Shown: positions 1 through 64,000 of the stretch, one piece after another
Layout of the letters: each line of letters opens with the position of its first letter
How positions within the stretch are numbered: position 1 is the stretch's first letter
Origin: Aphanomyces cochlioides
Taxonomy: Eukaryota; Oomycota; Saprolegniomycetes; Saprolegniales; Verrucalvaceae
Assembly: GCA_019828595.1 (NCBI GenBank)
Contig: JAHQRK010000001.1
Location: 4,960,001 to 5,024,000, forward strand
Direction of reading: 5' to 3'
Length of the DNA stretch: 64,000 nt
Translations under genes and position numbers: made by a program
Notes under the pieces: model-generated
What the model saw: the letters and a program-made list of their open reading frames with translations, nothing else
Databases searched by the model: none
Told to the model about the DNA's origin: nothing

Positions 1-781
1 GTCTGTGGGTTCTTCTTGTGGATCAAAATGTTCGGAAATTTGGAGCCCCATAACGAACCAGGATTTTCCTTGACAAATTGATCGCAGATGACTTTTTCGG
101 ACCAGTCCTTGTAGCCTTCGCCCAACTTGACTGTGAGCTCGTACACTTGGGACTGGGGAGTGAGCAAAATGTTTTCAATGAAGGCGTCCATGTCACCAGA
201 GTCTTTGTAGAATGCGTCCGCCATGGCCTCGCATCGCGCAATATCGTCATCGGCAATAGCATGAGCACCAGTGTTGCGATGTTTCGCGCCTTTGGGGGCA
301 TTGCCTTGCTTGGAATCTTTCTTGGACGAAGCTGAATCCTTGCCGGGAGCCTTTTGCGTCCATGGATTGGCCTTTTCAGCGTTTTGTTGCTCTTGATCGC
401 CTTGTATTTTGTCTGCCGCGGTAGGAGGATCAACAGCGCCATTTCCTTGAGCAACGGATTTGTCGACAATGTCTTGATTTGACTGGTCATTGTCATTGTT
501 TGTCGATTGTTCCTCTTGAATAACTTCTCCAGGAGTATCACACGGCTTCGCTTGGCCGTTAATGTCGCCTGACCCATCAACCTCAGAGTGAATTTGAGTA
601 TTTCCCTCGTCGGTTAAGGCCTCGGTTTCAGTAGAATCCTTCCCCTCGGCGTCTCCAGAGACCATATCCACGTCCTCTTGAGATTTTTCTTCTTCCTCTC
701 CCGTTCTAGGAGGCTCAGCACAGGGGGCGACGCGGTTGGTGGCTGCTGGCTCAGTCCCATTGGTCACGAGAAAGGCCGGGG
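1..781 (-). mobile_element. R13: 5'-truncated LINE copy, partial at window edge
   Basis: Antisense ORF1 sequence matching reference element positions about 684-1464 (numbered from 25976). It runs off the left window edge, so its 3' part is not visible. At 781/782 its truncated 5' end abuts plus-strand R2. The first 15 bases of R2 after the junction, ACGTCAACTTCATGG, end in TGG, exactly as expected for the target-site duplication of a minus-strand insertion. I therefore read it as a separate insertion into R2 and not as an inverted part of R2. The second duplication copy lies outside the window. Confidence 0.85.
1..781 (-). pseudogene. ORF1 internal fragment (R13)
   Basis: Corresponds to about residues 208-468 of the 1012-aa ORF1 protein: the acidic Glu/Asp/Ser-rich part of the N-terminal half and the start of the conserved central domain (the GSLWGSKFPN region). 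No start codon or stop of its own, because both ends are cut, by 5' truncation at 781 and by the window edge. A Thr to Ala difference is seen near the PGK motif relative to the other copies. Not expected to make a functional protein. Confidence 0.85.
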
Positions 782-792
782 ACGTCAACTTC

Positions 793-1197
793 ATGGCTCA
801 ATACAAGATTCACCCGTCAGAAATCTTGGAAGAATTGACCACGGACATACCAGAGATCAAGCGCATCCTCTTTGCACTTGCTACGATTGACTTATTCCTC
901 TCAAATCGGGCCCCAGACCTCTACACAAACTCGGAGGCACTGACTGTTCTATTGAACCAAGAAGCAACAAGATTGCCTGACACCAACTGCTTGACGGACT
1001 GGTCGCTGTTTGCTTTGATCGAAAACTTCAGCGACAATCTCGAGAAGTTCACTTTGCCGGCTCCCGTCTTGTCGGCCATCTCGATGCTCAAAAGCATCAC
1101 CAACAATTACCACATCGACGAGCTCTGCAGCAAAGCTCACCACTCCATGAACGCCGACGAAATTGATCCCCTCGATTTGGAGGACGATCAACTCTAA
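793..1197 (+). pseudogene. ORF1 C-terminal fragment (R2)
   Basis: Encodes the C-terminal helical part of ORF1 (about residues 878-1012, from MAQYKIH to the DDQL terminus) and the normal TAA stop at 1195-1197. Upstream sequence is lost at the 781/782 junction. The open frame entering from R13 (736-1197) is a chimera of antisense and sense ORF1 and is not a gene. The 793 start is simply the first internal Met of the fragment. Confidence 0.85.
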
Positions 1198-1275
1198 GGC
1201 TTCTATCCCCTGCTTCAATCCATTTCAACCTCCCCTCTGACCCCTCCATTCTACTCATTTTCATCTGTACTCGTG

Positions 1276-1781
1276 ATGAGTGACAACAACTTCTCCGATG
1301 TCCCAACTGAACTCGTGGACTGGGACCCACAAATCATCTCCCTCAACACCAATGGCTTCTCCAACAGTCATCGGTACATCCTCGACAAACTATCAAGTGT
1401 TCACGACGTTTCCTTTATCCAAGAAACCCGTTTCCGCACGCCAAGTCTCCACGACCGTGTTGCGTTCCATTGGCAACGCATCACAAACCACGAAGGCTCT
1501 TTGTTCTTTGAAGAGCCTATTTACCCTGAAGTATCCACGTCGCCAGCCACTGGAGGTCTGGCTACGTTGATACATCCTCACTCTCCTTTGAAGAACGCCA
1601 CTCAAGTCCCTCATGACAACCCAGTGCTTCGTGGTCGTTATCTACAAGTGCGATGTACTCTGGGTCCACTGACAGTCGTTCTCCACAATATCTATGCGCC
1701 GGCAGCCTTCCAACAACGAGCAAGTTACTTCGAAGAATTGCCACGCGACTTTCCTCCACATGCGCTCCACATTGTTGGAGG
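1276..1781 (+). pseudogene. ORF2 N-terminal fragment, endonuclease part (R2)
   Basis: First 168 residues of ORF2: the N-terminal half of the endonuclease/exonuclease/phosphatase domain, with NTNG, QET and NIYAPA motifs. It is broken after HIVGG by the R3 insertion; a TAA in the R3 3' end closes the frame at once. The remainder of the same gene resumes at 58089. ATG at 1276 follows a GTG codon and lies 78 nt after the ORF1 stop. Confidence 0.9.
1767..1781 (+). repeat. Target-site duplication of R3, left copy
   Basis: CCACATTGTTGGAGG, 15 bp in R2 ORF2, identical to 58089-58103. It ends in AGG directly at the R3 3' end, defining the primer nick as TTGGAGG|AGATT. Confidence 0.93.
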
Positions 1782-1927
1782 TTAAATGAGTTGTATTAAC
1801 CTTATTTTTGAGCAAAGGCCCTAATGACTTACTAATTTGCCTCGTACTGTATAAATAGAACTTGGAAAACAGAATATGGCAAAGTGGTCATTGAACAGGA
1901 GATGAAGTGAGTGAGCCGTCAGCTCAC
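1782..1927 (-). promoter_or_regulatory. R3 3' UTR with terminal hairpin
   Basis: 146-nt 3' UTR. A stem-loop of 9 bp (TGAGTGAGC/GCTCACTCA, loop TGACG) begins at the ORF2 TGA stop. The terminal inverted repeat GGTTAA-N10-TTAACC spans 1780-1801, its outer GG/CC pair coming from the R2 target. There is no poly(A). Such 3' structures are the usual RT recognition sites in stringent-type LINEs; that role is inferred here. Confidence 0.7.
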
Positions 1928-4900
1928 TCATGAAACGACGCTGTCAGGAATGGCGTGTTGACGTAACCAGGGGTCCGAAGATAGATGCTTGAGCACATTG
2001 AATACCTTGGTGTATCCCTTCTTGAGAGGGAGATCAACCAGGAGCTGTTGTAGATGTAGCTTGATCAAAGAGGCAGCATGAATGGCAACTTCCATCGGAC
2101 TCTTCGCTGTGAGGTCGGGTCGAAAGGTGCGATCGGCACGTTGGAGCCATATTTGATAATACACGCAGGCTCGGACAATCGGCCAGATCTTCAGATAGCC
2201 ACGGATGTAGTATCCATCGGACGGCTTGGGCGTCTCGTAGAACATTTCCAGACACGTGGACGGAAAGGAACACTCGAGCAGTCGCTGGATTGTCTTGAAG
2301 AAATACCAAACAGATTGACCATATCCACAAGAGAACAGGAAATGCTCGTACGTCTCATTGACACGACAGAAGACACACGTCGGCTTGGGGTCTTGGTACT
2401 GAAACAGATATTGCATGGCGTTGGCGCGGAGAAGGGTCTTGAAAATGAACTCTCCATATCGAGGGAGAATGTGGTCGGGTTGGAGGAAGGCGGCAAGTTG
2501 GGTAAGGCGCTTGGGGTCTTCGTAAAAGTTGGATGGCAGGTTGAGATGCTTGGTAGGAAGAATGGACGAGCTGACAGCTGGAGAAGCTCTGATCTTAGCC
2601 GATTTCGAAGTCGCAAACGCCAACAAGATCGGACTCGAGTCAGGGTGAATCATCCAGTGCCATTCCATCCATTCAGAGCTTGGCGTCGGCAAGTGGAACA
2701 CGGGAGCATCCTCTTCAGAAACAATCTCAAACAATCGTGATAACTTGGTCACCAAGATTGAGATCCATTGTTTCGTTGGAGGGACAAAATTGGCTTGGCG
2801 GCAGGCACGGTTGATTTTGTCGAACAAGATCGAAGCTGGCCAAACTCGCTGACACGGAGTCAACAAATGCGACAACTTCGTGATGTGAAGCGAAGCCAAT
2901 ACATTGGCTTGGTCTTGCGTCGATGTAGAGCACTGATCGTATAGGTCTTCGAGTCCAGGCAGATACGAGTTGTGCCAAAGGGGAACATCCAAAGATGAGA
3001 TGTGATTTGGACAGCCGTACGGAGTCCAGCGGGATTCAAACCAGCTACTCAATAAGGCTTTCCACATTGGAGTGATATTGGGATTCTTGTACAGTCGTCT
3101 GATGAATGCAGAAGAGCCATTTGCCAAGAGGAGATCTCGGGGGGAACCCCATGGATGAAAAGCCTTCTCGAGGAGAGTATAGCCCGGCGTAATCCAGGCG
3201 GACATGGCAGACTTGCGGGGTGGGGTGGTGATGGCTTGAATGCATCTGATCATGACAGAGCGGTTGTGTTGTTGCCATAAAGCAAGTGCATGGTGCAGGC
3301 CTAAGCCACCGGACTTCTTCGGCATGAATATGATCTCCTTTTTGATCAAACGGAGGCCATGGACAGAGGAGGATGGGTTGATTTCTTCACCATGCATAAA
3401 TTGAAGCATGGCCTTGTCGATCTTTTTGGCCAGGTCTTTGTCGGCAGGGACAAAAGCCAGTTGGTACCATAACACAGGCAGACATATGCTGTGCAGGATA
3501 GTGACTTTTCCGGCCATGGTTCGAGCCTTGTAGAGCCACAAAGACAAGCGAGCCACAAACTTCTCAAACACGTAATTGAAACGTGCCAATGGAGAAAGAT
3601 TGGGCGCAACCAAGATACCAAGAGCCTTCACGGGACTGTCGGAAGTAACTTGTAGTGAGGCAAGGTTCCCATTCAACTGGCTGTAGGTCAGAATTTGGGT
3701 CTTGTCTACGTTGAGTCGGAAACCAGACTTGTCGCAAAAGGTTTGAACCAATGCAAGCTGCCGGTGGAGGCACGTCTCATTTGCAGCATAGAGTTGCGAG
3801 TCGTCGGCAAAGTAACTCCCAGTGTGGTAGCGATCCCCACACTTGATGCCATAGTTGGAGTGTTGCCGTAGGAGTTGGCACATCGGTTCCAAAGCGATCA
3901 CAAACAGAAGTGGCGACAGTGGATCACCTTGCAACACACCGCGTGAGATGTGAACTGGCTTGGACAAGAAGCCGTTCACCAAGATGCGAGACTTGCGGCC
4001 CGAGTACAGTACGCGAACCATGTCAACAAAGGTTTCGGGAAAGCCATAGTGACGGAGGACGCGGAGCAAGTACGCGTGGTCCACGCGATCAAAAGCTTTC
4101 TCAAAGTCAAGCAGTGCCACCATCGAGGACGGACTGTGTAGTTTGATGTGGTGCAGCATGTCATCCAGTCGTGCAAAATTGGTTTGGATATTGCTTCGAC
4201 GGATAAAGCCTTGCTGGTCCGGGTGGATGATGTGTCGAATGTGGCGCTGGAGTCGATAAGCCAGAATACTCGTCAGGATTTTCACATCCGTGTTGAGTAG
4301 GCTAATGGGCCGATAGTTCTTGGCCTGTGACTTGGGGCCTTTCTTGTGCAGCAACACCAGCGTACTGACAAGTTGCATGGGAGTCAAGCGAGGGTGAGAA
4401 TGGAGCTGGTGTGTGAATAGCAGCTCCAATACCAACGACCACTTGTGAGGTGCAAGTTTGAGGACTTCGAATGGCAGAGCGTTGGGACCTGGCGCTGAGT
4501 TCGAACTGCTGTGTCGAATAGCATGATAGAACTCGTTGGCGCGCAAGGGAGCCGACAGCTCTTTCTGGGCTTGCTCTGGCAGTTGCTTGTGTCGAGTCAA
4601 TGGGGTCAGAAATGACGACACTTCGTCTCCAGATCGCTGCACCTCGGGAGCTGCAAACAAGTCCTTGTAGTAGTCGACCAGGACGTCAGACATGCCTTGT
4701 TGATTGGAGACAACATTTCCATTGACATCCACCAACTCTTTGAAGACTGTCTTCTTCAAGGGGGTAGGGACAGGGGACATGAAGTGGAACTTGGACGAGC
4801 GCTCTGCTTTGTACAAGTGAAGTTGGAACGCCTGGTCTTGACGAAACTGCTTGTCTCGATCTTGCAGCTCGTGAATTTGCTTTTGAAGGTCTCGCACTCG

Positions 4901-5983
4901 ATCCACCAGCACTGAATCTTGACGCATGTTGGGGACTTGCAAAAGCGAAGCGATCTCGACAGCTAACTTCTTCAACGGCAGACGTTGTTTCTCCAATCGT
5001 TGAGAATGGAATTCTTTGAGTTGGGAGCGGATATCATTGACCAGTATGTCGTAGGCCTTGGAGATATTGTGGAATGTTGGAGACTTGTCCAAAAATCGAT
5101 CCAGACATCCATGAACAATCTCGGCCGCTCGTGGTAGACGAAGTAGCCAAGTTGGAGCTTTCCATGATCCAGAGCCATGGCGCAATGTTTGACGCTTTGT
5201 GATGATACGACAAGCCACGTGGTCAGCCTGTGGAACGTGTGGCATGTGCGTCGCCTTCCAATGACAAAGACCCGCCAAGGTGGACGAACAAAAGATGTAG
5301 TCGAGTCGGTTGGTGAGTGTGGGACTTGTGAAGGCTCGTGCCACGGGGTTTTGACGACGAAACAGATCCACCAGAGACAAACTGTGCATCCATTGTTCCA
5401 GTTGAAGGGTGCCGGCCATGGTGGAGGTACTGGGTCTCAACGAATCCAAATCTTTGTTGAGAGTGCAGTTGAAATCTCCTCCAACAATGTGGAGCGCATG
5501 TGGAGGAAAGTCGCGTGGCAATTCTTCGAAGTAACTTGCTCGTTCTTGGAAGGCTGCCGGCGCATAGATATTGTGGAGAACGACTGTCAGTGGACCCAGA
5601 GTACATCGCACTTGTAGATAACGACCACGAAGCACTGAGTTGTCATGAGGGACTTGAGTGGCGTTCTTCAAAGGAGAGTGAGGATGTATCAACGTAGCCA
5701 GACCTCCAGTGGCTGGCGACGTGGATACTTCAGGGTAAATAGGCTCTTCAAAGAACAAAGAGCCTTCGTGGTTTGTGATGCGTTGCCAATGGAACGCAAC
5801 ACGGTCGTGGAGACTTGGCGTGCGGAAACGGGTTTCTTGGATAAAGGAAACGTCGTGAACACTTGATAGTTTGTCGAGGATGTACCGATGACTGTTGGAG
5901 AAGCCATTGGTGTTGAGGGAGATGATTTGTGGGTCCCAGTCCACGAGTTCAGTTGGGACATCGGAGAAGTTGTTGTCAATCAT
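1928..5983 (-). CDS. ORF2: endonuclease-reverse transcriptase, intact (R3)
   Basis: Complete 1351-aa ORF2 with all catalytic motifs described for the R9 copy: N-terminal endonuclease (QET, GGDFN, SDH-like ADHVA), RT with LLDFEKAFDR, LQGDPLSP and FADD, and a C-terminal CX2CX7HX4C finger. Private differences include Cys for Arg in the LRHWKA segment and Phe for Ile in QTNIARL. ATG at 5983 is chosen over the preceding GTG. It could still supply protein in trans even though its own ORF1 is destroyed. Confidence 0.93.
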   Translation of the reverse strand: MIDNNFSDVPTELVDWDPQIISLNTNGFSNSHRYILDKLSSVHDVSFIQETRFRTPSLHDRVAFHWQRITNHEGSLFFEEPIYPEVSTSPATGGLATLIHPHSPLKNATQVPHDNSVLRGRYLQVRCTLGPLTVVLHNIYAPAAFQERASYFEELPRDFPPHALHIVGGDFNCTLNKDLDSLRPSTSTMAGTLQLEQWMHSLSLVDLFRRQNPVARAFTSPTLTNRLDYIFCSSTLAGLCHWKATHMPHVPQADHVACRIITKRQTLRHGSGSWKAPTWLLRLPRAAEIVHGCLDRFLDKSPTFHNISKAYDILVNDIRSQLKEFHSQRLEKQRLPLKKLAVEIASLLQVPNMRQDSVLVDRVRDLQKQIHELQDRDKQFRQDQAFQLHLYKAERSSKFHFMSPVPTPLKKTVFKELVDVNGNVVSNQQGMSDVLVDYYKDLFAAPEVQRSGDEVSSFLTPLTRHKQLPEQAQKELSAPLRANEFYHAIRHSSSNSAPGPNALPFEVLKLAPHKWSLVLELLFTHQLHSHPRLTPMQLVSTLVLLHKKGPKSQAKNYRPISLLNTDVKILTSILAYRLQRHIRHIIHPDQQGFIRRSNIQTNFARLDDMLHHIKLHSPSSMVALLDFEKAFDRVDHAYLLRVLRHYGFPETFVDMVRVLYSGRKSRILVNGFLSKPVHISRGVLQGDPLSPLLFVIALEPMCQLLRQHSNYGIKCGDRYHTGSYFADDSQLYAANETCLHRQLALVQTFCDKSGFRLNVDKTQILTYSQLNGNLASLQVTSDSPVKALGILVAPNLSPLARFNYVFEKFVARLSLWLYKARTMAGKVTILHSICLPVLWYQLAFVPADKDLAKKIDKAMLQFMHGEEINPSSSVHGLRLIKKEIIFMPKKSGGLGLHHALALWQQHNRSVMIRCIQAITTPPRKSAMSAWITPGYTLLEKAFHPWGSPRDLLLANGSSAFIRRLYKNPNITPMWKALLSSWFESRWTPYGCPNHISSLDVPLWHNSYLPGLEDLYDQCSTSTQDQANVLASLHITKLSHLLTPCQRVWPASILFDKINRACRQANFVPPTKQWISILVTKLSRLFEIVSEEDAPVFHLPTPSSEWMEWHWMIHPDSSPILLAFATSKSAKIRASPAVSSSILPTKHLNLPSNFYEDPKRLTQLAAFLQPDHILPRYGEFIFKTLLRANAMQYLFQYQDPKPTCVFCRVNETYEHFLFSCGYGQSVWYFFKTIQRLLECSFPSTCLEMFYETPKPSDGYYIRGYLKIWPIVRACVYYQIWLQRADRTFRPDLTAKSPMEVAIHAASLIKLHLQQLLVDLPLKKGYTKVFNVLKHLSSDPWLRQHAIPDSVVS

Positions 5984-6061
5984 CACGAGTACAGATGAAA
6001 ATGAGTAGAATGGAGGGGTGAGAGGGGAGGTTGAAATGGATTGAAGCAGGGGATAGAAGCC

Positions 6062-7759
6062 TTAGAGTTGATCGTCCTCCAAATCGAGGGGATCAATTTC
6101 GTCGGCGTTCATGGAGTGGTGAGCTTTGCTGCAGAGCTCGTCGATGTGGTAATTGTTGGTGATGCTTTTGAGCATCGAGATGGCCGACAAGACGGGAGCC
6201 GGCAAAGTGAACTTCTCGAGATTGTCGCTGAAGTTTTCGATCAAAGCAAACAGCGACCAGTCCGTCAAGCAGTTGGTGTCAGGCAATCTTGTTGCTTCTT
6301 GGTTCAATAGAACAGTCAGTGCCTCCGAGTTTGTGTAGAGGTCTGGGGCCCGATTTGAGAGGAATAAGTCAATCGTAGCAAGTGCAAAGAGGATGCGCTT
6401 GATCTCTGGTATGTCCGTGGTCAATTCTTCCAAGATTTCTGACGGGTGAATCTTGTATTGAGCCATGAAGTTGACGTGATGTTTGTAGTTGTGAGGCTTG
6501 CCTTGAGCTTTTAACAAAGCCATCTTGCGCTCAATAGTCTTGGTTGCAACAAGTGACTGAAACAAACTGAGGTCTTCATCTTGTGCGTACATAGCATGTG
6601 CAACGAGCTGAGGATCATCTCGCAAAATGCGTTGACATTCGGTGATACTGCCTTCGACTTTCTTGTCTCGAATGATCTTCTTCGCCAATTCGAGGTGGGC
6701 TGCAGCAGACTTGTTAAGTCGTTGTTTCTTCGCTTTGCCTTTGGTCTTTTTCGGGCGTGGCGCACTTGAATCTTCCAATACAATTCGAGGCACTGCAAAG
6801 TCTTCAAACGAGAGTTCCACGTCGTCTTCTTCGAGGATATGAAAACGGTTGGATGTCGGCAGGGGATCCAAACGTGGGGACGAAGGCAAAGTACGTTTTG
6901 GAGCTGGTCCAGACCGGTAGCCCGTTACCAATTGAAGGTCCAGCGAGTTCTTGGGCTGCTCACTTGGTGGAGCAAGAGCGGGCGATTCGTTGGTAGACAT
7001 TTCCACATCTTCTTGTTGTTTGTCTTGTCCATTGTTGTTAGGGGGATCGCTGTCACCAGACATATCAACATCAGAGCCATGAGAAGGAGCTGTTGGCTGT
7101 GGTTGTTCATCTTGACGATCTCCAGATGCCTCAGTTGAGTCGGCCTCGCCTTCCGCATTTGTTCCAGGGTCTTGATCATGATCGTCTCCATCAGGTTCAG
7201 GTTCTTTTTCTCCTGACGGAGGAGATTTTGCCGCTGCCTTGGCCGCTTTTGCCTTCGCTTTTTCAGCCTTGGCCTCTGCACGTCGTGAAACAATCGACGG
7301 AGGCAATGTCTTGTTCAGAGCAGCGATCTTGTGCTGAAACACGACGACAAAAGGCTGACCCGACGGATCCGTAATGGTGATTTCGCGTAGTGCGTCGCCG
7401 GATTTTGGCACCAGCACTGCAGGAGGCGCAGGCGACTTGAAAATGACTCTCAAATGCGGCGACTTGATGTTCTGACCAGCAGTAGGGTTGAATGCTGCTA
7501 TCACTGACTTGGTCAATGCAGCCATTTTCTTGACAATCGCCTTGGCCATCGAAGGGTGACTGACCTTGTTGAACGTAACGTAGTAGTTGTTGCCATAACG
7601 CGAGTACTTGGGAACCAGGAAGTCTTTGCCACCAAGTCGAAACGTTGTGCCTCCCATTTCCACGCACGTAGACAAGTTGTAACTTGAGATCACAATGGTC
7701 TGTGGGTTCTTCTTGTGGATCAAAATGTTCGGAAATTTGGAGCCCCATAACGAACCAGG
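6062..7759 (-). pseudogene. ORF1 C-terminal part, split by R4 (R3)
   Basis: Encodes ORF1 residues about 448-1012: central conserved domain, Ala/Lys-rich helix, acidic linker, basic KKTKGKAKKQR stretch and C-terminal helical domain, ending at the normal TAA. The N-terminal 452 codons lie 49 kb away at 56671-58025. The linker carries the EPEPDG..EADSTEASGDR haplotype also seen in R5 and R9. Confidence 0.9.
7745..7759 (+). repeat. Target-site duplication of R4, left copy
   Basis: CCATAACGAACCAGG, 15 bp (16 if the next A, shared with the element's first base, is counted), repeated at 56671-56685. This is the same site, on the same ORF1 sequence, that R6 used in R5. Confidence 0.93.
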
Positions 7760-7820
7760 ACTTCCGAATTTGCCTCGTACCCCTCAAGTCAAGAAGTTAT
7801 CAAGTGCCGCCGCGCTCAAA

Positions 7821-10820: not shown

Positions 10821-10881
10821 ACTTCCGAATTTGCCTCGTACCCCTCAAGTCAAGAAGTTATCAAGTGCCGCCGCGCTCAAA

Positions 10882-25975: not shown

Positions 25976-25982
25976 ACTTCCG

Positions 25983-52169: not shown

Positions 52170-52247
52170 GGCTTCTATCCCCTGCTTCAATCCATTTCAA
52201 CCTCCCCTCTGACCCCTCCATTCTACTCATTTTCATCTGTACTCGTG

Positions 52248-53112
52248 ATGAGTGACAACAACTTCTCCGATGTCCCAACTGAACTCGTGGACTGGGACCC
52301 ACAAATCATCTCCCTCAACACCAATGGCTTCTCCAACAGTCATCGGTACATCCTCGACAAACTATCAAGTGTTCACGACGTTTCCTTTATCCAAGAAACC
52401 CGTTTCCGCACGCCAAGTCTCCACGACCGTGTTGCGTTCCATTGGCAACGCATCACAAACCACGAAGGCTCTTTGTTCTTTGAAGAGCCTATTTACCCTG
52501 AAGTATCCACGTCGCCAGCCACTGGAGGTCTGGCTACGTTGATACATCCTCACTCTCCTTTGAAGAACGCCACTCAAGTCCCTCATGACAACCCAGTGCT
52601 TCGTGGTCGTTATCTACAAGTGCGATGTACTCTGGGTCCACTGACAGTCGTTCTCCACAATATCTATGCGCCGGCAGCCTTCCAACAACGAGCAAGTTAC
52701 TTCGAAGAATTGCCACGCGACTTTCCTCCACATGCGCTCCACATTGTTGGAGGCGATTTCAACTGCACTCTCAACAAAGATTTGGATTCGTTGAGACCCA
52801 GTACCTCCACCATGGCCGGCACCCTTCAACTGGAACAATGGATGCACAGTTTGTCTCTGGTGGATCTGTTTCGCCGTCAAAACCCCGTGGCACGAGCCTT
52901 CACAAGTCCCACACTCACCAACCGACTTGACTACATCTTTTGTTCGTCCACCTTGGCGGGTCTTCGTCATTGGAAGGCGACGCACATGCCACACGTTCCA
53001 CAGGCTGACCACGTGGCTTGTCGTATCATCACAAAGCGTCAAACATTGCGCCATGGCTCTGGATCATGGAAAGCTCCAACTTGGCTACTTCGTCTACCAC
53101 GAGCGGCCGAGA
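52248..53112 (+). pseudogene. ORF2 endonuclease part, split by R11 (R4)
   Basis: ORF2 residues 1-288 with the complete endonuclease domain (NTNG, QET, GGDFNC, RLDYIF, ADHVA), Met-Ser-Asp start type and QQRAS variant. It is interrupted by the 204-bp R11 stub, after which the frame continues from 53318. Without R11 the gene would be open from start to stop. Confidence 0.91.
53097..53112 (+). repeat. Target-site duplication of R11, left copy
   Basis: CCACGAGCGGCCGAGA, 16 bp, repeated at 53318-53333 (17 bp if the preceding A is included). Confidence 0.92.
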
Positions 53113-53157
53113 CGTCAACACGCCATTCCTGACAACGTCAACACGCCATTCCTGACA
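53112..53157 (+). repeat. 23-bp tandem duplication at the R11 5' end
   Basis: Two exact 23-bp copies beginning ACGTCAACACG at 53112 and 53135. Only one copy exists at the matching place in the other elements. Confidence 0.9.
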
Positions 53158-53316
53158 GTGTCGTTTCATGAGTGAGCTGACGGCTCACCACTTCATCTCC
53201 TGTTCAATGACCACTTTGCAATATTCTGTTTTCCAAGTTCTATTTATACAGTACGAGGCAAATTAGTAAGTCATTAGGGCCTTTGCTCAAAAATAAGGTT
53301 AATACAACTCATTTAA
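53113..53316 (+). mobile_element. R11: 204-bp 5'-truncated LINE stub
   Basis: Contains only the last ORF2 codons (RQHAIPDSVVS) and the 3' UTR, flanked by 16-bp target-site duplications in R4 ORF2. A normal, very short product of abortive reverse transcription. Its first 23 bp are tandemly repeated (53112-53134 and 53135-53157). It is the only 3' junction where the element end and the target CC are separated by an extra A (53317), which breaks the perfect terminal inverted repeat. The stop-codon stem lacks the T, as in R8 and R9. Confidence 0.93.
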
Positions 53317-53317
53317 A

Positions 53318-53333
53318 CCACGAGCGGCCGAGA
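53318..53333 (+). repeat. Target-site duplication of R11, right copy
   Basis: CCACGAGCGGCCGAGA, matches 53097-53112. Nick on the other strand: GCTCGTGG|TAGAC. Confidence 0.92.
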
Positions 53334-56300
53334 TTGTTCATGGATGTCTGGATCGATTTTTGGACAAGTCTCCATCATTCCACAATATCTCCAAGGCCTA
53401 CGACATGCTGGTCAATGATATCCGCTCCCAACTCAAAGAATTCCATTCTCAACGATTGGAGAAACAACGTCTGCCGTTGAAGAAGTTAGCTGTCGAGATC
53501 GCTTCGCTTTTGCAAGTCCCCAACATGCGTCAATATGCAGTGCTGGTGGATCGAGTGCGAGACCTTCAAAAGCAAATTCACGAGCTGCAAGATCGAGACA
53601 AGCAGTTTCGTCAAGACCAGGCGTTCCAACTTCACTTGTACAAAGCAGAGCGCTCGTCCAAGTTCCACTTCATGTCTCCTGTCCCTACCCCCTTGAAGAA
53701 GACAGTCTTCAAAGAGTTGGTGGATGTCAATGGAAATGTTGTCTCCAATCAACAAGGCATGTCTGACGTCCTGGTCGACTACTACAAGGACTTGTTTGCA
53801 GCTCCCGAGGTGCAGCGATCTGGAGACGAAGTGTCGTCATTTCTGACCCCATTGACTCGACACAAGCAACTGCCAGAGCAAGCCCAGAAAGAGCTGTCGG
53901 CTCCCTTGCGCGCCAACGAGTTCTATCATGCTATTTCGCACAGCAGTTCGAACTCAGCGCCAGGTCCCAACGCTCTGCCATTCGAAGTCCTCAAACTTGC
54001 ACCTCACAAGTGGTCGTTGGTATTGGAGCTGCTATTCACACACCAGCTCCATTCTCACCCTCGCTTGACTCCCATGCAACTTGTCAGTACGCTGGTGTTG
54101 CTGCACAAGAAAGGCCCCAAGTCACAAGCCAAGAACTATCGGCCCATTAGCCTACTCAACACGGATGTGAAAATCCTGACGAGTATTCTGGCTTATCGAC
54201 TCCAGCGCCACATTCGACACATCATCCACCCGGACCAGCAAGGCTTTATCCGTCGAAGCAATATCCAAACCAATATTGCACGACTGGATGACATGCTGCA
54301 CCACATCAAACTACACAGTCCGTCCTCGATGGTGGCACTGCTTGACTTTGAGAAAGCTTTTGATCGCGTGGACCACGCGTACTTGCTCCGCGTCCTCCGT
54401 CACTATGGCTTTCCCGAAACCTTTGTTGCCATGGTTCGCGTACTGTACTCGGGCCGCAAGTCTCGCATCTTGGTGAACGGCTTCTTGTCCAAGCCAGTTC
54501 ACATCTCACGCGGTGTGTTGCAAGGTGATCCACTGTCGCCACTTCTGTTTGTGATCGCTTTGGAACCGATGTGCCAACTCCTACGGCAACACTCCAACTA
54601 TGGCATCAAGTGTGGGGATCGCTACCACACTGGGAGTTACTTTGCCGACGACTCGCAACTCTATGCGGCAAATGAGACGTGCCTCCACCGGCAGCTTGCA
54701 TTGGTTCAAACCTTTTGCGACAAGTCTGGTTTCCGACTCAACGTAGACAAGACCCAAATTCTGACCTACAGCCAGTTGAATGGGAACCTTGCCTCACTAC
54801 AAGTTACTTCCGACAGTCCCGTGAAGGCTCTTGGTATCTTGGTTGCGCCCAATCTTTCTCCATTGGCACGTTTCAATTACGTGTATGAGAAGTTTGTGGC
54901 TCGCTTGTCTTTGTGGCTCTACAAGGCTCGAACCATGGCCGGAAAAGTCACTATCCTGCACAGCATATGTCTGCCTGTGTTATGGTACCAACTGGCTTTT
55001 GTCCCTGCCGACAAAGACCTGGCCAAAAAGATCGACAAGGCCATGCTTCAATTTATGCATGGTGAAGAAATCAACCCATCCTCCTCTGTCCATGGCCTCC
55101 GTTTGATCAAAAAGGAGATTCTATTCATGCCGAAGAAGTCCGGTGGCTTAGGCCTGCACCATGCACTTGCTTTATGGCAACAACACAACCGCTCTGTCAT
55201 GATCAGATGCATTCAAGCCATCACCACCCCACCCCGCAAGTCTGCCATGTCCGCCTGGATTACGCCGGGCTATACTCTCCTCGAGAAGGCTTTTCATCCA
55301 TGGGGTTCCCCCCGAGATCTCCTCTTGGCAAATGGCTCTTCTGCATTCATCAGACAACTGTACAAGAATCCCAATATCACTCCAATGTGGAAAGCCTTAT
55401 TGAGTAGCTGGTTTGAATCCCGCTGGACTCCGTACGGCTGTCCAAATCACATCTCATCTTTGGATGTTCCCCTTTGGCACAACTCGTATCTGCCTGGACT
55501 CGAAGACCTATACGATCAGTGCTCTACATCGACGCAAGACCAAGCCAATGTATTGGCTTCGCTTCACATCACGAAGTTGTCGCATTTGTTGACTCCGTGT
55601 CAGCGAGTTTGGCCAGCTTCGATCTTGTTCGACAAAATCAACCGTGCCTGCCGCCAAGCCAATTTTGTCCCTCCAACGAAACAATGGATCTCAATCTTGG
55701 TGACCAAGTTATCACGATTGTTTGAGATTGTTTCTGAAGAGGATGCTCCCGTGTTCCACTTGCCGACGCCAAGCTCTGAATGGATGGAATGGCACTGGAT
55801 GATACACCCTGACTCGAGTCCGATCTTGTTGGCGCTTGCGACTTCGAAATCGGCTAAGATCAGAGCTTCTCCAGCTGTCAGCTCGTCCATTCTTCCTACC
55901 AAGCATCTCAACCTGCCATCCAACTTTTACGAAGACCCCAAGCGCCTTACCCAACTTGCCGCCTTCCTCCAACCCGACCACATTCTCCCTCGATATGGAG
56001 AGTTCATTTTCAAGACCCTTCTCCGCGCCAACGCCATGCAATATCTGTTTCAGTACCAAGACCCCAAGCCGACGTGTGTCTTCTGTCGTGTCAATGAGAC
56101 GTACGAGCATTTCCTGTTCTCTTGTGGATATGGTCAATCTGTTTGGTATTCCTTCAAGACAATCCAGCGACTGCTCGAGTGTTCCTTTCCGTCCACGTGT
56201 CTGGAAATGTTCTACGAGACGCCCAAGCCGTCCGATGGATACTACATCCGTGGCTATCTGAAGATCTGGCCGATTGTCCGAGCCTGCGTGTATTATCAAA

Positions 56301-56524
56301 TATGGCTCCAACGTGCCGATCGCACCTTTCGACCCGACCTCACAGCGAAGAGTCCGATGGAAGTTGCCATTCATGCTGCCTCTTTGATCAAGCTACATCT
56401 ACAACAGCTCCTGGTTGATCTCCCTCTCAAGAAGGGATACACCAAGGTATTCAATGTGCTCAAGCATCTATCTTCGGACCCCTGGTTACGTCAACACGCC
56501 ATTCCTGACAGCGTCGTTTCATGA
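53318..56524 (+). pseudogene. ORF2 RT and finger part (R4)
   Basis: ORF2 residues ~284-1351, open to the TGA at 56522-56524, with RT boxes and CCHC finger intact. Diagnostic residues SPSFHN, FVAMVRV and WYSFKTI are shared with R7. Private changes are MRQYAV, AISHSSS (Ser for Arg) and VYEKF. The only defect in this gene is the R11 stub upstream. Confidence 0.91.
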
Positions 56525-56670
56525 GTGAGCTGACGGCTCACTCACTTCATCTCCTGTTCAATGACCACTTTGCCATATTCTGTTTTCCAAGTTCTATTTA
56601 TAGAGTACGAGGCAAATTAGTAAGTCATTAGGGCCTTTGCTCAAAAATATGGTTAATACAACTCATTTAA
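56525..56670 (+). promoter_or_regulatory. R4 3' UTR with terminal hairpin
   Basis: 146 nt with the perfect 9-bp stop-codon stem (TGAGTGAGC/GCTCACTCA). TATAGAG variant beside the 14-nt motif. AAATATGG instead of AAATAAGG before the terminal inverted repeat at 56651-56672. Confidence 0.68.
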
Positions 56671-56685
56671 CCATAACGAACCAGG
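56671..56685 (+). repeat. Target-site duplication of R4, right copy
   Basis: CCATAACGAACCAGG, matches 7745-7759 (16 bp with the following A). Nick on the other strand: GTTATGG|GGCTC. Confidence 0.93.
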
Positions 56686-58025
56686 ATTTTCCTTGACAAA
56701 TTGATCGCAGATGACTTTTTCGGACCAGTCCTTGTAGCCTTCGCCCAACTTGACTGTGAGCTCGTACACTTGGGACTGGGGGGTGAGCAAAATGTTTTCA
56801 ATGAAGGCGTCCATGTCACCAGAGTCTTTGTAGAATGCGTCCGCCATGGCCTCGCATCGCGCAATATCGTCATCGGCAATAGCATGAGCACCAGTGTTGC
56901 GATGTTTCGCGCCTTTGGGGGCATTGCCTTGCTTGGAATCTTTCTTGGACGAAGCTGAATCCTTGCCGGGAGTCTTTTGCGTCCATGGATTGGCCCTTTC
57001 AGCGTTTTGTTGCTCTTGATCGCCTTGTATTTTGTCTGCCGCGGTAGGAGGATCAACAGCGCCATTTCCTTGAGCAACGGATTTGTCGACAATGTCTTGA
57101 TTTGACTGGTCATTGTCATTGTTTGTCGATTGTTCCTCTTGAATAACTTCTCCAGGAGTATCACACGGCTTCGCTTGGCCGTTAATGTCGCCTGACCCAT
57201 CAACCTCAGAGTGAATTTGAGTATTTCCCTCGTCGGTTAAGGCCTCGGTTTCAGTAGAATCCTTCCCCTCGGCGTCTCCAGAGACCATATCCACGTCCTC
57301 TTGAGATTTTTCTTCTTCCTCTCCCGTTCTAGGAGGCTCAGCACAGGGGGCGACGCGGTTGGTGGCTGCTGGCTCAGTCCCATTGGTCACGAGAAAGGCC
57401 GGGGCCAGACCCCCAGTGACAGGGGTAGAAGGGGAATCCATGCCATCCCCGCAGCACGGTGACTGGGGTACACCATTGCTCCGGCGAGAACCCAAATCGG
57501 GATACCGCCCCCGCCCCTCCGAAGAGGCCCCTGGGGGAAGTAGACAGAACCGCAGGGTGTGCCCATAGGGGGGGCCCTCGTAGCCTCTAGGGCTGGCATG
57601 GACCCCGTTTTCTCGCCGCCTTCACTGGGGATCGACTCCAATTGGAGTCCAGGGAAGCAGCCACCACAGGCACAAGGCCCCAGTGGTTCGCCCTCCTGAG
57701 TGAGGGCTTCGCTAGACAAGTTAACGACAGTGGTCTGGGGGTCAACCACTGACCCACTGAGGTTGACCCCCCCTGGAACTCCGGCGAGTGGAGCACCAGG
57801 TGAAGCGCTGGTGGAGCGAGACGCAGATTGGTCTCCAGAGACGCTGTTGGGGTCGAACTCGACCTCCACTTCGGCCCTAGGGTTAGGTGTAGAGACATTA
57901 CTCACACCACTTCCGCCATCCTGATTGGACGACGAAAGTGGGTGAGGTGATACAATACCTGGAATGATGGTGACTCCGTGAGTGTTGGTCTCACGGAGCT
58001 CGGAACAGCTGTTGGCGTTGGACAT
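56671..58025 (-). pseudogene. ORF1 N-terminal part with frameshift (R3)
   Basis: ATG at 58025. The C6 tract is C5 (57533-57537 on the plus strand as G5), shifting the frame near residue 163, the same lesion as in R4. Residues up to ~452 follow in the shifted frame to the R4 insertion. The open frame extending upstream through 58086 into R2 is the open leader plus antisense ORF2, not a gene. Confidence 0.88.
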
Positions 58026-58088
58026 TTTGAGCGCGGCGGCACTTGATAACTTCTTGACTTGAGGGGTACGAGGCAAATTCGGAAGTAC

Positions 58089-58103
58089 CCACATTGTTGG
58101 AGG
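58089..58103 (+). repeat. Target-site duplication of R3, right copy
   Basis: CCACATTGTTGGAGG, matches 1767-1781. Confidence 0.93.
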
Positions 58104-61100
58104 AGATTTCAACTGCACTCTCAACAAAGATTTGGATTCGTTGAGACCCAGTACCTCCACCATGGCCGGCACCCTTCAACTGGAACAATGGATGCACAGT
58201 TTGTCTCTGGTGGATCTGTTTCGCCGTCAAAACCCCGTGGCACGAGCCTTCACAAGTCCCACACTCACCAACCGACTCGACTACATATTTTGTTCGTCCA
58301 CCTTGGCGGGTCTTCGTCATTGGAAGGCGACGCACATGCCACACGTTCCACAGGCTGACCACGTGGCTTGTCGTATCATCACAAAGCGTCAAACATTGCG
58401 CCATGGCTCTGGATCATGGAAAGCTCCAACTTGGCTACTTCGTCTACCACGAGCGGCCGAGATTGTTCATGGATGTCTGGATCGATTTTTGGACAAGTCT
58501 CCAACATTCCACAATATCTCCAAGGCCTACGACATGCTGGTCAATGATATCCGCTCCCAACTCAAAGAATTCCATTCTCAACGATTGGAGAAACAACGTC
58601 TGCCGTTGAAGAAGTCAGCTGTGGAGATCGCTTCGCTTTTGCAAGTCCCCAACATGCGTCAAGATGCAGTGCTGGTGGATCGAGTGCGAGACCTTCAAAA
58701 GCAAATTCACGAGCTGCAAGATCGAGACAAGCAGTTTCGTCAAGACCAGGCGTTCCAACTTCACTTGTACAAAGCAGAGCGCTCGTCCAAGTTCCACTTC
58801 ATGTCTCCTGTCCCTACCCCCTTGAAGAAGACAGTCTTCAAAGAGTTGGTGGATGTCAATGGAAATGTTGTCTCCAATCAACAAGGCATGTCTGACGTCC
58901 TGGTCGACTACTACAAGGACTTGTTTGCAGCTCCCGAGGTGCAGCGATCTGGAGACGAAGTGTCGTCATTTCTGACCCCATTGACTCGACACAAGCAACT
59001 GCCAGAGCAAGCCCAGAAAGAGCTGTCGGCTCCCTTGCGCGCCAACGAGTTCTATCATGCTATTCGACACAGCAGTTCGAACTCAGCGCCAGGTCCCAAC
59101 GCTCTGCCATTCGAAGTCCTCAAACTTGCACCTCACAAGTGGTCGTTGGTATTGGAGCTGCTATTCACACACCAGCTCCATTCTCACCCTCGCTTGACTC
59201 CCATGCAACTTGTCAGTACGCTGGTGTTGCTGCACAAGAAAGGCCCCAAGTCACAAGCCAAGAACTATCGGCCCATTAGCCTACTCAACACGGATGTGAA
59301 AATCCTGACGAGTATTCTGGCTTATCGACTCCAGCGCCACATTCGACACATCATCCACCCGGACCAGCAAGGCTTTATCCGTCGAAGCAATATCCAAACC
59401 AATATTGCACGACTGGATGACATGCTGCACCACATCAAACTACACAGTCCGTCCTCGATGGTGGCACTGCTTGACTTTGAGAAAGCTTTTGATCGCGTGG
59501 ACCACGCGTACTTGCTCCGCGTCCTCCGTCACTATGGCTTTCCCGAAACCTTTGTTGACATGGTTCGCGTACTGTACTCGGGCCGCAAGTCTCGCATCTT
59601 GGTGAACGGCTTCTTGTCCAAGCCAGTTCACATCTCACGCGGTGTGTTGCAAGGTGATCCACTGTCGCCACTTCTGTTTGTGATCGCTTTAGAACCGATG
59701 TGCCAACTCCTACGGCAACACTCCAACTATGGCATCAAGTGTGGGGATCGCTACCACACTGGGAGTTACTTTGCCGACGACTCGCAACTCTATGCGGCAA
59801 ATGAGACGTGCCTCCACCGGCAGCTTGCATTGGTTCAAACCTTTTGCGACAAGTCTGGTTTCCGACTCAACGTAGACAAGACCCAAATTCTGACCTACAG
59901 CCAGTTGAATGGGAACCTTGCCTCACTACAAGTTACTTCCGACAGTCCCGTGAAGGCTCTTGGTATCTTGGTTGCGCCCAATCTTTCTCCATTGGCACGT
60001 TTCAATTACGTGTTTGAGAAGTTTGTGGCTCGCTTGTCTTTGTGGCTCTACAAGGCTCGAACCATGGCCGGAAAAGTCACTATCCTGCACAGCATATGTC
60101 TGCCTGTGTTATGGTACCAACTGGCTTTTGTCCCTGCCGACAAAGACCTGGCCAAAAAGATCGACAAGGCCATGCTTCAATTTATGCATGGTGAAGAAAT
60201 CAACCCATCCTCCTCTGTCCATGGCCTCCGTTTGATCAAAAAGGAGATTCTATTCATGCCGAAGAAGTCCGGTGGCTTAGGCCTGCACCATGCACTTGCT
60301 TTATGGCAACAACACAACCGCTCTGTCATGATCAGATGCATTCAAGCCATCACCACCCCACCCCGCAAGTCTGCCATGTCCGCCTGGATTACGCCGGGCT
60401 ATACTCTCCTCGAGAAGGCTTTTCATCCATGGGGTTCCCCCCGAGATCTCCTCTTGGCAAATGGCTCTTCTGCATTCATCAGACAACTGTACAAGAATCC
60501 CAATATCACTCCAATGTGGAAAGCCTTATTGAGTAGCTGGTTTGAATCTCGCTGGACTCCGTACGGCTGTCCAAATCACATCTCATCTTTGGATGTTCCC
60601 CTTTGGCACAACTCGTATCTGCCTGGACTCGAAGACCTATACGATCAGTGCTCTACATCGACGCAAGACCAAGCCAATGTATTGGCGTCGCTTCACATCA
60701 CGAAGTTGTCGCATTTGTTGACTCCGTGTCAGCGAGTTTGGCCAGCTTCGATCTTGTTCGACAAAATCAACCGTGCCTGCCGCCAAGCCAATTTTGTCCC
60801 TCCAACGAAACAATGGATCTCAATCTTGGTGACCAAGTTATCACGATTGTTTGAGATTGTTTCTGAAGAGGATGCTCCCGTGTTCCACTTGCCGACGCCA
60901 AGCTCTGAATGGATGGAATGGCACTGGATGATACACCCTGACTCGAGTCCGATCTTGTTGGCGCTTGCGACTTCGAAATCGGCTAAGATCAGAGCTTCTC
61001 CAGCTGTCAGCTCGTCCATTCTTCCTACCAAGCATCTCAACCTGCCATCCAACTTTTACGAAGACCCCAAGCGCCTTACCCAACTTGCCGCCTTCCTCCA

Positions 61101-61653
61101 ACCCGACCACATTCTCCCTCGATATGGAGAGTTCATTTTCAAGACCCTTCTCCGCGCCAACGCCATGCAATATCTGTTTCAGTACCAAGACCCCAAGCCG
61201 ACGTGTGTCTTCTGTCGTGTCAATGAGACGTACGAGCATTTCCTGTTCTCTTGTGGATATGGTCAATCTGTTTGGTATTTCTTCAAGGCGATCCAGCGAC
61301 TGCTCGAGTGTTCCTTTCCGTCAACGTGTCTGGAAATGTTCTACGAGACGCCCAAGCCGTCCGATGGATACTACATCCGTGGCTATCTGAAGATCTGGCC
61401 GATTGTCCGAGCCTGCGTGTATTATCAAATATGGCTCCAACGTGCCGATCGCACCTTTCGACCCGACCTCACAGAGAAGAGTCCGATGGAAGTTGCCATT
61501 CATGCTGCCTCTTTGATCAAGCTACATCTACAACACCTCCTGGTTGATCTCCCTCTCAAGAAGGGATACACCAAGGTATTCAATGTGCTCAAGCATCTAT
61601 CTTCGGACCACTGGTTACGTCAACACATCATTCCTAACAGCGTCGTTTCATGA
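58089..61653 (+). pseudogene. ORF2 C-terminal seven-eighths (R2)
   Basis: ORF2 residues ~164-1351: the second half of the endonuclease (GGDFNC, RLDYIF, ADHVA), RT boxes and CCHC finger, all in one open frame. With 1276-1781 it makes a complete gene interrupted only by R3. Private changes: LKKSAVEI, LTEKSPM, LQHLLVD and IIPNSVVS. The C-terminal DHWLRQHII is shared with R10. Confidence 0.91.
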
Positions 61654-61799
61654 GAGAGCTGACGGCTCACTCACTTCATCTCCTGTCCAATGACCACTTT
61701 GCCATATCCTGTTTTCCAAGTTCTATTTATACAGTACGAGGCAAATTAGTAAGTCATTAGGGCCTTTGCTCAAAAATAAGGTTAATACAACTCATTTAA
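61654..61799 (+). promoter_or_regulatory. R2 3' UTR with terminal hairpin
   Basis: 146 nt. The stop-codon stem carries GAGAGAGC (one mismatch), as in R10. The antisense TATAAATAG and 14-nt motif are kept. The terminal inverted repeat is at 61780-61801. Confidence 0.66.
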
Positions 61800-63291
61800 C
61801 CTCCATTCTACTCATTTTCATCTGTACTCGTGATGAGTGACAACAACTTCTCCGATGTCCCAACTGAACTCGTGGACTGGGACCCACAAATCATCTCCCT
61901 CAACACCAATGGCTTCTCCAACAGTCATCGGTACATCCTCGACAAACTATCAAGTGTTCACGACGTTTCCTTTATCCAAGAAACCCGTTTCCGCACGCCA
62001 AGTCTCCACGACCGTGTTGCGTTCCATTGGCAACGCATCACAAACCACGCAGGCTCTTTGTTCTTTGAAGAGCCTATTTACCCTGAAGTATCCACGTCGC
62101 CAGCCACTGGAGGTCTGGCTACGTTGATACATCCTCACTCTCCTTTGAAGAACGCCACTCAAGTCCCTCATGACAACCCAGTGCTTCGTGGTCGTTATCT
62201 ACAAGTGCGATGTACTCTGGGTCCACTGACAGTCGTTCTCCACAATATCTATGCGCCGGCAGCCTTCCAACAACGAGCAAGTTACTTCGAAGAATTGCCA
62301 CGCGACTTTCCTCCACATGCGCTCCACATTGTTGGAGGAGATTTCAACTGCACTCTCAACAAAGATTTGGATTCGTTGAGACCCAGTACCTCCACCATGG
62401 CCGGCACCCTTCAACTGGAACAATGGATGCACAGTTTGTCTCTGGTGGATCTGTTTCGCCGTCAAAACCCCGTGGCACGAGCCTTCACAAGTCCCACACT
62501 CACCAACCGACTTGACTACATCTTTTGTTCGTCCACCTTGGCGGGTCTTCGTCATTGGAAGGCGACGCACATGCCACACGTTCCACAGGCTGACCACGTG
62601 GCTTGTCGTATCATCACAAAGCGTCAAACATTGCGCCATGGCTCTGGATCATGGAAAGCTCCAACTTGGCTACTTCGTCTACCACGAGCGGCCGAGATTG
62701 TTCATGGATGTCTGGATCGATTTTTGGACAAGTCTCCAACATTCCACAATATCGCCAAGGCCTACGACATGCTGGTCAATGATATCCGCTCCCAACTCAA
62801 AGAATTCCATTCTCAACGATTGGAGAAACAACGTCTGCCGTTGAAGAAGTTAGCTGTCGAGATCGCTTCGCTTTTGCAAGTCCCCAACATGCGTCAAGAT
62901 TCAGTGCTGGTGGATCGAGTGCGAGACCTTCAAAAGCAAATTCACGAGCTACAAGATCGAGACAAGCAGTTTCGTCAAGACCAGGCGTTCCAACTTCACT
63001 TGTACAAAGCAGAGCGCTCGTCCAAGTTCCACTTCATGTCCCCTGTCCCTACCCCCTTGAAGAAGACAGTCTTCAAAGAGTTGGTGGATGTCAATGGAAA
63101 TGTTGTCTCCAATCAACAAGGCATGTCTGACGTCCTGGTCGACTACTACAAGGACTTGTTTGCAGCTCCCGAGGTGCAGCGATCTGGAGACGAAGTGTCG
63201 TCATTTCTGACCCCATTGACTCGACACAAGCAACTGCCAGAGCAAGCCCAGAAAGAGCTGTCGGCTCCCTTGCGCGCCAACGAGTTCTATC
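61800..63291 (+). mobile_element. R1: outermost LINE host, partial
   Basis: Reference positions ~3146-4637: the end of the spacer and the N-terminal third of ORF2, bounded on the left by R2 and on the right by R12. Its ORF1 should lie left of the window and its 3' half right of it. Confidence 0.9.
61833..63290 (+). pseudogene. ORF2 N-terminal part, cut by R12 (R1)
   Basis: ORF2 residues 1-486 (Met-Ser-Asp start type, QQRAS variant), with the complete endonuclease domain and the region leading to RT, no frameshift. It stops at RANEFY, where R12 begins. Private changes: NHAGSLF (Ala for Glu) and HNIAKAY. Confidence 0.9.
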
Positions 63292-64000
63292 CAAGTCAAG
63301 AAGTTATCAAGTGCCGCCGCGCTCAAAATGTCCAACGCCAACAGCTGTTCCGAGCTCCGTGAGACCAACACTCACGGAGTCACCATCATTCCAGGTATTG
63401 TATCACCTCACCCACTTTCGTCGTCCAATCAGGATGGCGGAAGTGGTGTGAGTAATGTCTCTACACCTAACCCTAGGGCCGAAGTGGAGGTCGAGTTCGA
63501 CCCCAACAGCGTCTCTGGAGACCAATCTGCGTCTCGCTCCACCAGCGCTTCACCTGGTGCTCCACTCGCCGGAGTTCCAGGGGGGTCAACCTCAGTGGGT
63601 CAGTGGTTGACCCCCAGACCACTGTCGTTAACTTGTCTAGCGAAGCCCTCACTCAGGAGGGCGAACCACTGGGGCCTTGTGCCTGTGGTGGCTGCTTCCC
63701 TGGACTCCAATTGGAGTCGATCCCCAGTGAAGGCGGCGAGAAAACGGGGTCCATGCCAGCCCTAGAGGCTACGAGGGCCCCCCCTATGGGCACACCCTGC
63801 GGTTCTGTCTACTTCCCCCCAGGGGCCTCTTCGGAGGGGCGGGGGCGGTATCCCGATTTGGGTTCTCGCCGGAGCAATGGTGTACCCCAGTCACCGTGCT
63901 GCGGGGATGGCATGGATTCCCCTTCTACCCCTGTCACTGGGGGTCTGGCCCCGGCCTTTCTCGTGACCAATGGGACTGAGCCAGCAGCCACCAACCGCGT
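63292..64000 (+). mobile_element. R12: LINE 5' part at window edge
   Basis: Begins at reference position ~26, so it is almost full length at the 5' side, lacking the first 25 nt including the 14-nt motif. It is inserted in R1 ORF2 in the same orientation and continues past the window. If it follows the family rule, its target duplication is CCAACGAGTTCTATC (15 bp ending at 63291). Confidence 0.9.
63328..64000 (+). pseudogene. ORF1 N-terminal part with frameshift (R12)
   Basis: ATG 63328 followed by ORF1, but the usual G7 run is G6 at 63580-63585, shifting the frame at about residue 87. The normal frame continues afterwards to the window end (about residue 225), including CACGGC. The alternative-frame product after the shift is not a family protein. 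Confidence 0.86.

Follow-up and report, generated by a model that had tools for sequence, protein, structure and literature searches.

The window analysed here comprises 64,000 bases of contig C1 (C1:4960001-5024000) in a 76.2-Mb assembly of 94 contigs, and consists almost entirely of copies of one long interspersed nuclear element (LINE) that have inserted into one another. Judging from the sequence of the window and the surrounding assembly, this is a slice of a cluster of about 200 kb of self-inserted LINE copies; about 20 such clusters were mapped, one per contig, and they are probably the centromeres of the host, a likely oomycete. The self-nested LINE cluster that occurs once per contig is real, well supported and likely centromeric, and what is new about it is the outward polarity of the copies and their CC insertion site. 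Together with the lack of a poly(A) tail, these features go beyond a preliminary description of the window.

One LINE fills the window

BLASTN alignment against a full-length copy (25976-33360), which served as the reference throughout, tiled 63,975 of the 64,000 bases with the LINE, in 20 segments of 99.2-99.6% identity to that copy, in agreement with the preliminary description, which had assigned every segment to one 7.4-kb LINE. Of the 25 uncovered bases, 22 (53113-53134) duplicate the start of a 182-bp insert, forming a direct repeat at its truncated 5' end, as if the end of the complementary DNA had been copied twice. From 4853549 up to the end of the contig, the C1 cluster is 99.98% LINE; its only sizeable mostly non-LINE stretch (C1:4846874-4853548) contains short LINE-end-like pieces in mirror symmetry.

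The element is 7.38 kb long, with an open reading frame 1 (ORF1) of 1029 amino acids and an ORF2 of 1352 amino acids that is open in four window segments. ORF2 contains an APE-type endonuclease domain (Exo_endo_phos, PF03372, 4.8e-9) and a reverse transcriptase (RT) domain (RVT_1, PF00078, 3e-37), along with a weak zf-RVT match under the cut-off; its best PDB matches are to human L1 ORF2p (2.8e-61), the nearest solved relative by sequence. Neither a strict nor a relaxed PIP-box pattern matched ORF2, a profile search of the ORF1 frame found no Pfam family even at E 5, and hence no known L1 ORF1 domain, and a scan of the LINE against Rfam gave nothing reaching the gathering score. Two hallmarks of L1-type LINEs are present, namely, target-site duplications (15 joins) and 5' truncation (many copies).

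Confinement to one cluster per contig

Searching the genome for the ends of the element with at most one mismatch yielded 754 matches to the 3'-end motif and 473 to the 5'-end motif (the reversed controls gave 0). Positions were mapped for 273 distinct 3' ends, that is, the first 100 and subsets defined by the target bases that follow (all 38 with CCTT, all 46 with CCAG, all 20 with CCTC and 100 of 187 with CCAC); two more on C57 were not counted. Among the 273, 266 are located in one cluster per contig and 7 are solitary (four on C1 and one each on C2, C10 and C29). The preliminary description had proposed a preference of the element for its own chromatin domain, unless single copies dispersed through the genome proved equally frequent; in the mapped part, with 7 solitary ends among 273, this preference is borne out. 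At least two mapped ends are present on 21 contigs and at least three on 20, with cluster spans of up to 366 kb. On C1, 28 of the 3' ends fall within 199 kb, compared with 4 in the remaining 4.8 Mb.

Three contigs, C4, C45 and C67, are bounded by (TTTGGGGG)n telomere repeats at both ends, and the mapped ends on each form a single cluster (at 9-286 kb on the 2.52-Mb C4, 1.71-2.08 Mb on the 3.62-Mb C45 and 2.67-2.75 Mb on the 3.05-Mb C67). On C45, C67, C12, C23 and C34, the distance between the cluster and any telomere found is at least about 300 kb; on C4, the cluster starts 9 kb from one. Among the contig ends examined, those of C1, C5, C14, C21, C57 and C78 include starts or ends in LINE sequence. 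Furthermore, the genome encodes a CENP-A-like histone (L030, C9:1226828-1227235), for which the ten best PDB matches are CENP-A or H3/CENP-A chimeras and which has extra residues in loop 1 and likely a short intron; standard H3 genes are present as well. The clusters are likely, on indirect grounds, to be centromeres: the mapped ends form one cluster per contig, including the three contigs with two telomeres, several contigs end inside clusters, and a CENP-A-like gene is present. Of the two roles suggested in the preliminary description, centromere or subtelomere, the former is thus retained, and a subtelomeric location is not the general rule.

A different possibility, which appears unlikely, is that the clusters are a heterochromatic sink that collects the LINE and that the centromeres are elsewhere. 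The proximity of the C4 cluster to a telomere and the contigs that lack a cluster among the matches listed would be compatible with such a sink; what argues against it is the occurrence once per contig, including the three two-telomere contigs, at both median and near-terminal places, as is the case for centromeres.

Elicitins are markers of oomycetes. The genome contains 22 elicitin matches above the cut-off, compared with none of this family in the 14 control genomes, and 0 matches to chlorophyll-binding proteins, so that the host is likely an oomycete; the Mucoromycota and green algae, with which the preliminary description had compared the window, are not the group of the host.

The telomere repeat, the octamer TTTGGGGG, was found at 20 of the 49 contig ends examined (for example, L022, C1:1-340, and both ends of C4 and C45); a literature search aimed at it found no such telomere repeat among titles. 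Directly inside the C1 telomere repeats, there is a long RT-like frame (L022:1170-3370, + strand) without a Pfam match, which resembles Penelope-like elements.

Insertion site and 3' end

All 31 of the 3' ends read (from the C1 cluster and the flank to its left) have the form ...CATTTAA followed by CC (29 cases), ACC (1) or TC (1), with no poly(A); the A-rich or poly(A) tail of L1-type LINEs is absent here. Both Zepp, a LINE of green algae, and human L1 have poly(A) tails, and human L1 inserts at a T/A-rich site, whereas the present LINE uses a CC site. The last 22 bases of the element together with CC are predicted to form a terminal hairpin (z -2.05 for the whole 117-nt 3' end). The C1 cluster contains 29 LINE-in-LINE 3' junctions, and for 27 of them the empty site could be placed in the reference copy: the second base is C in 27 of 27, CC is found in 25 and CCA in 18. 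Counting distinct empty sites, CC is present in 21 of 23 and CCA in 15 of 23, against a background CC frequency of 4-6% of positions. CC is common to the target and the element end, and may belong to the RNA end as well.

These features translate into a precise biochemical prediction. The ORF2 endonuclease would cut the strand opposite CC, nicking it after 5'-GG, whose end could then pair with the ...UUAACC 3' end of the RNA and prime reverse transcription. Because CC occurs everywhere, the choice of target would be set by the chromatin of the cluster.

Nested insertions and possible recombination

Within the window, seven hosts are rejoined across an insert (b/r, c/q, d/n, e/g, g/l, h/k and n/p; letters as in Table 1), with BLAST overlaps of 14-19 bp that correspond to duplications of 14-17 bp when read letter by letter; the preliminary description had noticed these rejoinings and given the range, slightly too narrow, as 14-16 bp. 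Between C1 4830001 and the contig end (5046973), there are 64 LINE segments of at least 100 bp, among which 15 same-strand pairs rejoin within an overlap range of 8-22 bp, all of them at 14-19 bp, compared with 0 or 1 at each of 8 control offsets; no pairs cross. The joins backed by duplications are nested five deep in the window (b/r > c/q > d/n > g/l > h/k), which makes six levels, and a further join (C1 4936676/5037462) encloses the window from outside. Two additional levels are likely, with s as host of r and j as host of i; here the partner half is lost, and the support comes from the CC insertion site. The eight levels claimed in the preliminary description are therefore plausible, not fully proven: six are established by the nested joins.

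A depth of at least 8 was reached in 17% of 20,000 simulations of 29 uniform insertions, so that depth alone needs no special cause, a self-targeting element being sufficient, and we rejected it as evidence of focused insertion. It is the confinement, not the depth, that is the remarkable feature of the clusters.

Three other explanations of local features were discarded. Inversion by twin priming for segments a and b is refuted by the sequence further left in the C1 cluster, which shows b to be the central piece of a host that carries four inserts. RT template jumping was set aside as the main cause of the head-to-tail copies (i/j, r/s and others) because their junctions, too, lie at CC in the empty site. 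An insertion hot spot at element positions 1399-1417 was rejected as a general feature, with 4 matches genome-wide (at most 1 mismatch), 2 of them in the window. The two window cases, 7763/56671 and 12237/19618, share this target and the same relative orientation; the 2 others are both on C57.

Across the 29 junctions, both halves of the host are kept for 10 of 13 inserts in the opposite orientation and for 5 of 16 in the same orientation (Fisher 0.025). This pattern fits, weakly, with deletion between direct repeats: inserts in the same orientation would create direct repeats that would often be collapsed by recombination. Tandem and mirrored LINE sub-arrays are found at C1:4880980-4885654, C1:4901778-4914984, C4 near 245-250 kb, C5 2106643-2119545 and C8 1471161-1479953, with steps of about 937, 4402, 907, 1480 and 2133 bp, pointing to recombination within the clusters.

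Outward polarity of the copies

Outward pairs of 3' ends exceed inward ones in 16 of the 17 contigs with both strands (840 versus 247 in total; sign test 0.0003). This polarity was matched in 0 of 5,000 permutations, persists in 16 of 17 contigs when equal spacings are merged, and, with C3 and C8 left out, was matched in 0 of 4,000 permutations. On C1, the genome-wide motif matches run 3 -, 4 +, 12 -, 8 +, 1 -, and the main block has 12 - and 9 + in the set of 31 3' ends read; the 3' ends of C3 run 2 +, 8 -, 12 +, and those of C4 begin 29 -, 6 +. Half clusters fit the same scheme: C5, which ends inside a cluster at the right, has six - ends only, and C14, which starts inside one, three + ends only.

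The 5' ends also point outward in all 5 contigs examined (C1, C3, C4, C5 and, among the matches listed, C8; one-sided p 0.0008, 0.0016 without C1 and 0.010 on C4 and C5 alone). Splitting of hosts alone would send the 5' ends inward, and thus orientation is side-dependent in several clusters, with splitting adding to the polarity. In the window's own block, splitting dominates, and the overall 5' score of C1 stems from the contrast with its left part.

Elements of the L1 type prefer the lagging-strand template (human L1; PMC12503042, PMC12809410). A + copy would need a nick in the bottom strand, and it is for leftward forks that this strand serves as the lagging template, so that + copies on the right and - copies on the left suggest forks moving inward; conversely, if forks enter a cluster from both sides, - copies would be expected in its left part and + copies in its right part. 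One possible, still doubtful reading is that every centromere is a replication record written by the LINE: forks from both arms would meet in the cluster, the element would insert into the lagging-strand template, and the switch zone would mark the site of convergence and possibly the kinetochore. Being a readout that requires nothing but sequence, the outward polarity opens two questions to testing: does the orientation of LINEs record the direction of replication forks in natural genomes, and where, with respect to the kinetochore, does replication end?

Alternatively, insertions might go mainly into the innermost copies, in random orientation, with later splitting alone sorting the 3' ends. 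We consider this improbable. The nested chain in C1 would follow from such growth, as would the 5' ends of the window block, which, as splitting predicts, point slightly inward (26 versus 19 pairs); simulated insertion within about 2 kb of the centre gave a polarity block of at least 20 in 11% of runs, and the observed block is 21 raw and 19 with the tandem trio merged. However, this mode of growth predicts inward 5' ends, and they are outward in C3, C4, C5, C8 and C1 as a whole. In addition, the unsplit copies follow the polarity with one exception (C1:5038388, - on the right), f and C1:4925214, 4938178, 4946175 and 4954083 being - on the left and m, o and t + on the right, and the depth expected under focusing is about 20, compared with the observed 8 or so.

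Even less probable is that each cluster is a large recombination palindrome, with polarity as a by-product. Mirrored 3'-end spacings on C3 (2517, 3755 versus 2520, 3757, between 2445475-2465092 and 2504370-2523062) suggest, as spacings only, an inverted duplication with ~20-kb arms ~40 kb apart, and 2133-bp steps are mirrored on C8; nevertheless, the main C1 block parses into insertions with differing duplications, and the polarity persists without C3 and C8. That the nesting is an artefact of repeat collapse or chimerism in the assembly is very improbable, given that misassembly would not be expected to produce exact-duplication joins, zero crossings and the CC rule, even though LINE sequence is found right at an examined end of 6 contigs.

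Several observations weigh against the centromeric and the replication-record readings. The genome-wide pattern is based on 273 of the 754 3' ends; C6, C7, C11, C13, C15, C17, C18 and C20 (of C1-C21) have no copy among the matches listed, and C2 and C10 have one each. These contigs could represent chromosome arms, or could run counter to the rule of one cluster per chromosome. With respect to polarity, outward pairs are at least twice as numerous as inward ones in only 12 of the 17 contigs; the excess is slight on C12 (5 versus 4), C27 (40 versus 32) and C34 (12 versus 8), and C28 is inward, with 3 ends. The window's own C1 block does not have outward 5' ends; an unsplit - copy, C1:5038388, lies on the right side; there is a second, smaller switch on C1 near 4.87 Mb, and C4, C16 and C27 have more than one switch. 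The inverted duplications suspected from the C3 and C8 spacings would yield polarity without independent insertions, and two haplotypes may be represented among the contigs, in which case the 17 are perhaps not independent. There is no age gradient toward the centre of the C1 cluster (Spearman 0.13, p 0.44), and the difference in partner loss between same- and opposite-orientation inserts (11 of 16 versus 3 of 13) has p 0.054 once the tandem trio is merged. Finally, both centromere identity and fork direction are deduced from sequence.

Segments of the window

Table 1. LINE segments and related features of the window (window coordinates unless prefixed by C1)
Feature	Position	Strand	Description
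a	1..781	-	element 1464 to 684; 5' end of 5'-truncated copy starting left of the window (C1:4954083-4960781)
b	782..1781	+	element 2685-3684; host middle piece, continues as r (58089); 15-bp duplication
c	1779..7763	-	element 7382 to 1399; 3' part of copy c/q; open 1352-aa ORF2
d	7760..10821	+	element 1-3063; 5' part of copy d/n/p; rejoins n (52117), 15-16-bp duplication
e	10821..12237	+	element 1-1417; 5' part of copy e/g/l
f	12236..19621	-	unsplit full-length copy within e/g; 16-bp duplication CCATAACGAACCAGGA
g	19618..21683	+	element 1399-3464; middle of copy e/g/l
h	21682..25975	-	element 7381 to 3089; 3' part of copy h/k; open 1352-aa ORF2
i	25976..33360	+	innermost full-length copy; ORF1 frame 1029 aa (25986-29075), ORF2 1352 aa (29151-33209)
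j	33355..39134	+	element 1607-7383; likely host of i, 5' half lost; CC at empty-site junction, without partner half
k	39131..42232	-	element 3102 to 1; 5' part of copy h/k; 14-bp duplication
l	42234..44736	+	element 3450-5957; last surviving piece of copy e/g/l, remaining 3' part missing
m	44736..52118	+	unsplit full-length copy; open 1352-aa ORF2
n	52117..53112	+	element 3048-4043; middle of copy d/n/p
o	53135..53316	+	182-bp insert, element 7198-7379; 22-bp repeat before 5' end; 17-bp duplication ACCACGAGCGGCCGAGA
p	53317..56672	+	element 4027-7381; 3' part of copy d/n/p
q	56671..58086	-	element 1417 to 1; 5' part of copy c/q; 16-bp duplication
r	58089..61802	+	element 3670-7382; 3' part of copy including b
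s	61800..63291	+	element 3146-4637; likely host of r; interrupted by t, continues at C1:5030646
t	63292..64000	+	element from base 26; near-full copy leaving the window (to C1:5030647)
element 3' end	33335..33356	+	without poly(A); predicted terminal hairpin GGTTAA/TTAACC
switch zone, main C1 block	21685..33352		12 3' ends before it on the - strand, 9 after it on the + strand

Comparison with known systems

Green algae were already known to have clusters of self-nested LINEs at their likely centromeres, and plants and fungi to have LINE-rich ones; the present case is likely an example in an oomycete, a group with Copia-rich mapped centromeres, and would represent a similar solution from another element class. 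The literature searched, in which coverage of subscription papers is limited, included neither a LINE-built oomycete centromere nor outward LINE polarity at centromeres.

In Mucor, which is not known to have CENP-A, Grem-LINE1 flanks the kinetochore region instead of filling it. The similarity to the present LINE is that Grem-LINE1 elements are L1-like and reported at pericentric regions, in this case those of a fungus (PMC7377519). Human L1 shares the combination of an APE-type endonuclease with an RT, target duplications and 5' truncation, and its preference for the lagging-strand template offers a mechanism for the polarity (PMC12503042, PMC12809410). As is likely for the present LINE, the Celine element of poplar is confined to centromeres, which it fills, with 84% in CENH3 domains as proven by chromatin immunoprecipitation, and its duplications, of 15 bp on average, are similar; unlike here, 52 of its 58 full-length copies are reported in other elements, mostly Gypsy-like, at a site of the AAGA/AATA type (PMC11288735).

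Among oomycetes, the centromeres of Phytophthora are described as Copia-rich (PMC11139960), and those of Phytophthora sojae, mapped with CENP-A, span 211-356 kb (PMC7082073). The latter, CoLT centromeres resemble the present clusters in being regional, transposon-rich, of similar size, usually single on a contig and frequently located at its end, and CENP-A is present, here as a CENP-A-like gene; there, however, the element is a Copia-like long terminal repeat element (PMC7082073), whereas the C1 cluster, the one read through here, is almost pure LINE.

The closest parallel in arrangement is with Zepp and ZeppL. Zepp is found in Chlorella and Coccomyxa, and in the latter its clusters are nested, with strictly a single one on each chromosome (PMC3446292); ZeppL of Chlamydomonas is likewise clustered (PMC8226300). 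In both, as may be the case here, a self-nested LINE forms one cluster per chromosome that is proposed to be centromeric (PMC3446292, PMC8226300, PMC11005252), most clusters are chromosome-internal and some subtelomeric, and 5' truncation is frequent. The differences are that the hosts of Zepp are green algae, with Coccomyxa clusters of 1.5-42.3 kb, and that the passages on Zepp and ZeppL drawn on here contain no orientation rule or CC site. The present LINE cluster thus appears to work like Zepp, a likeness in arrangement that does not by itself imply membership in the same lineage.

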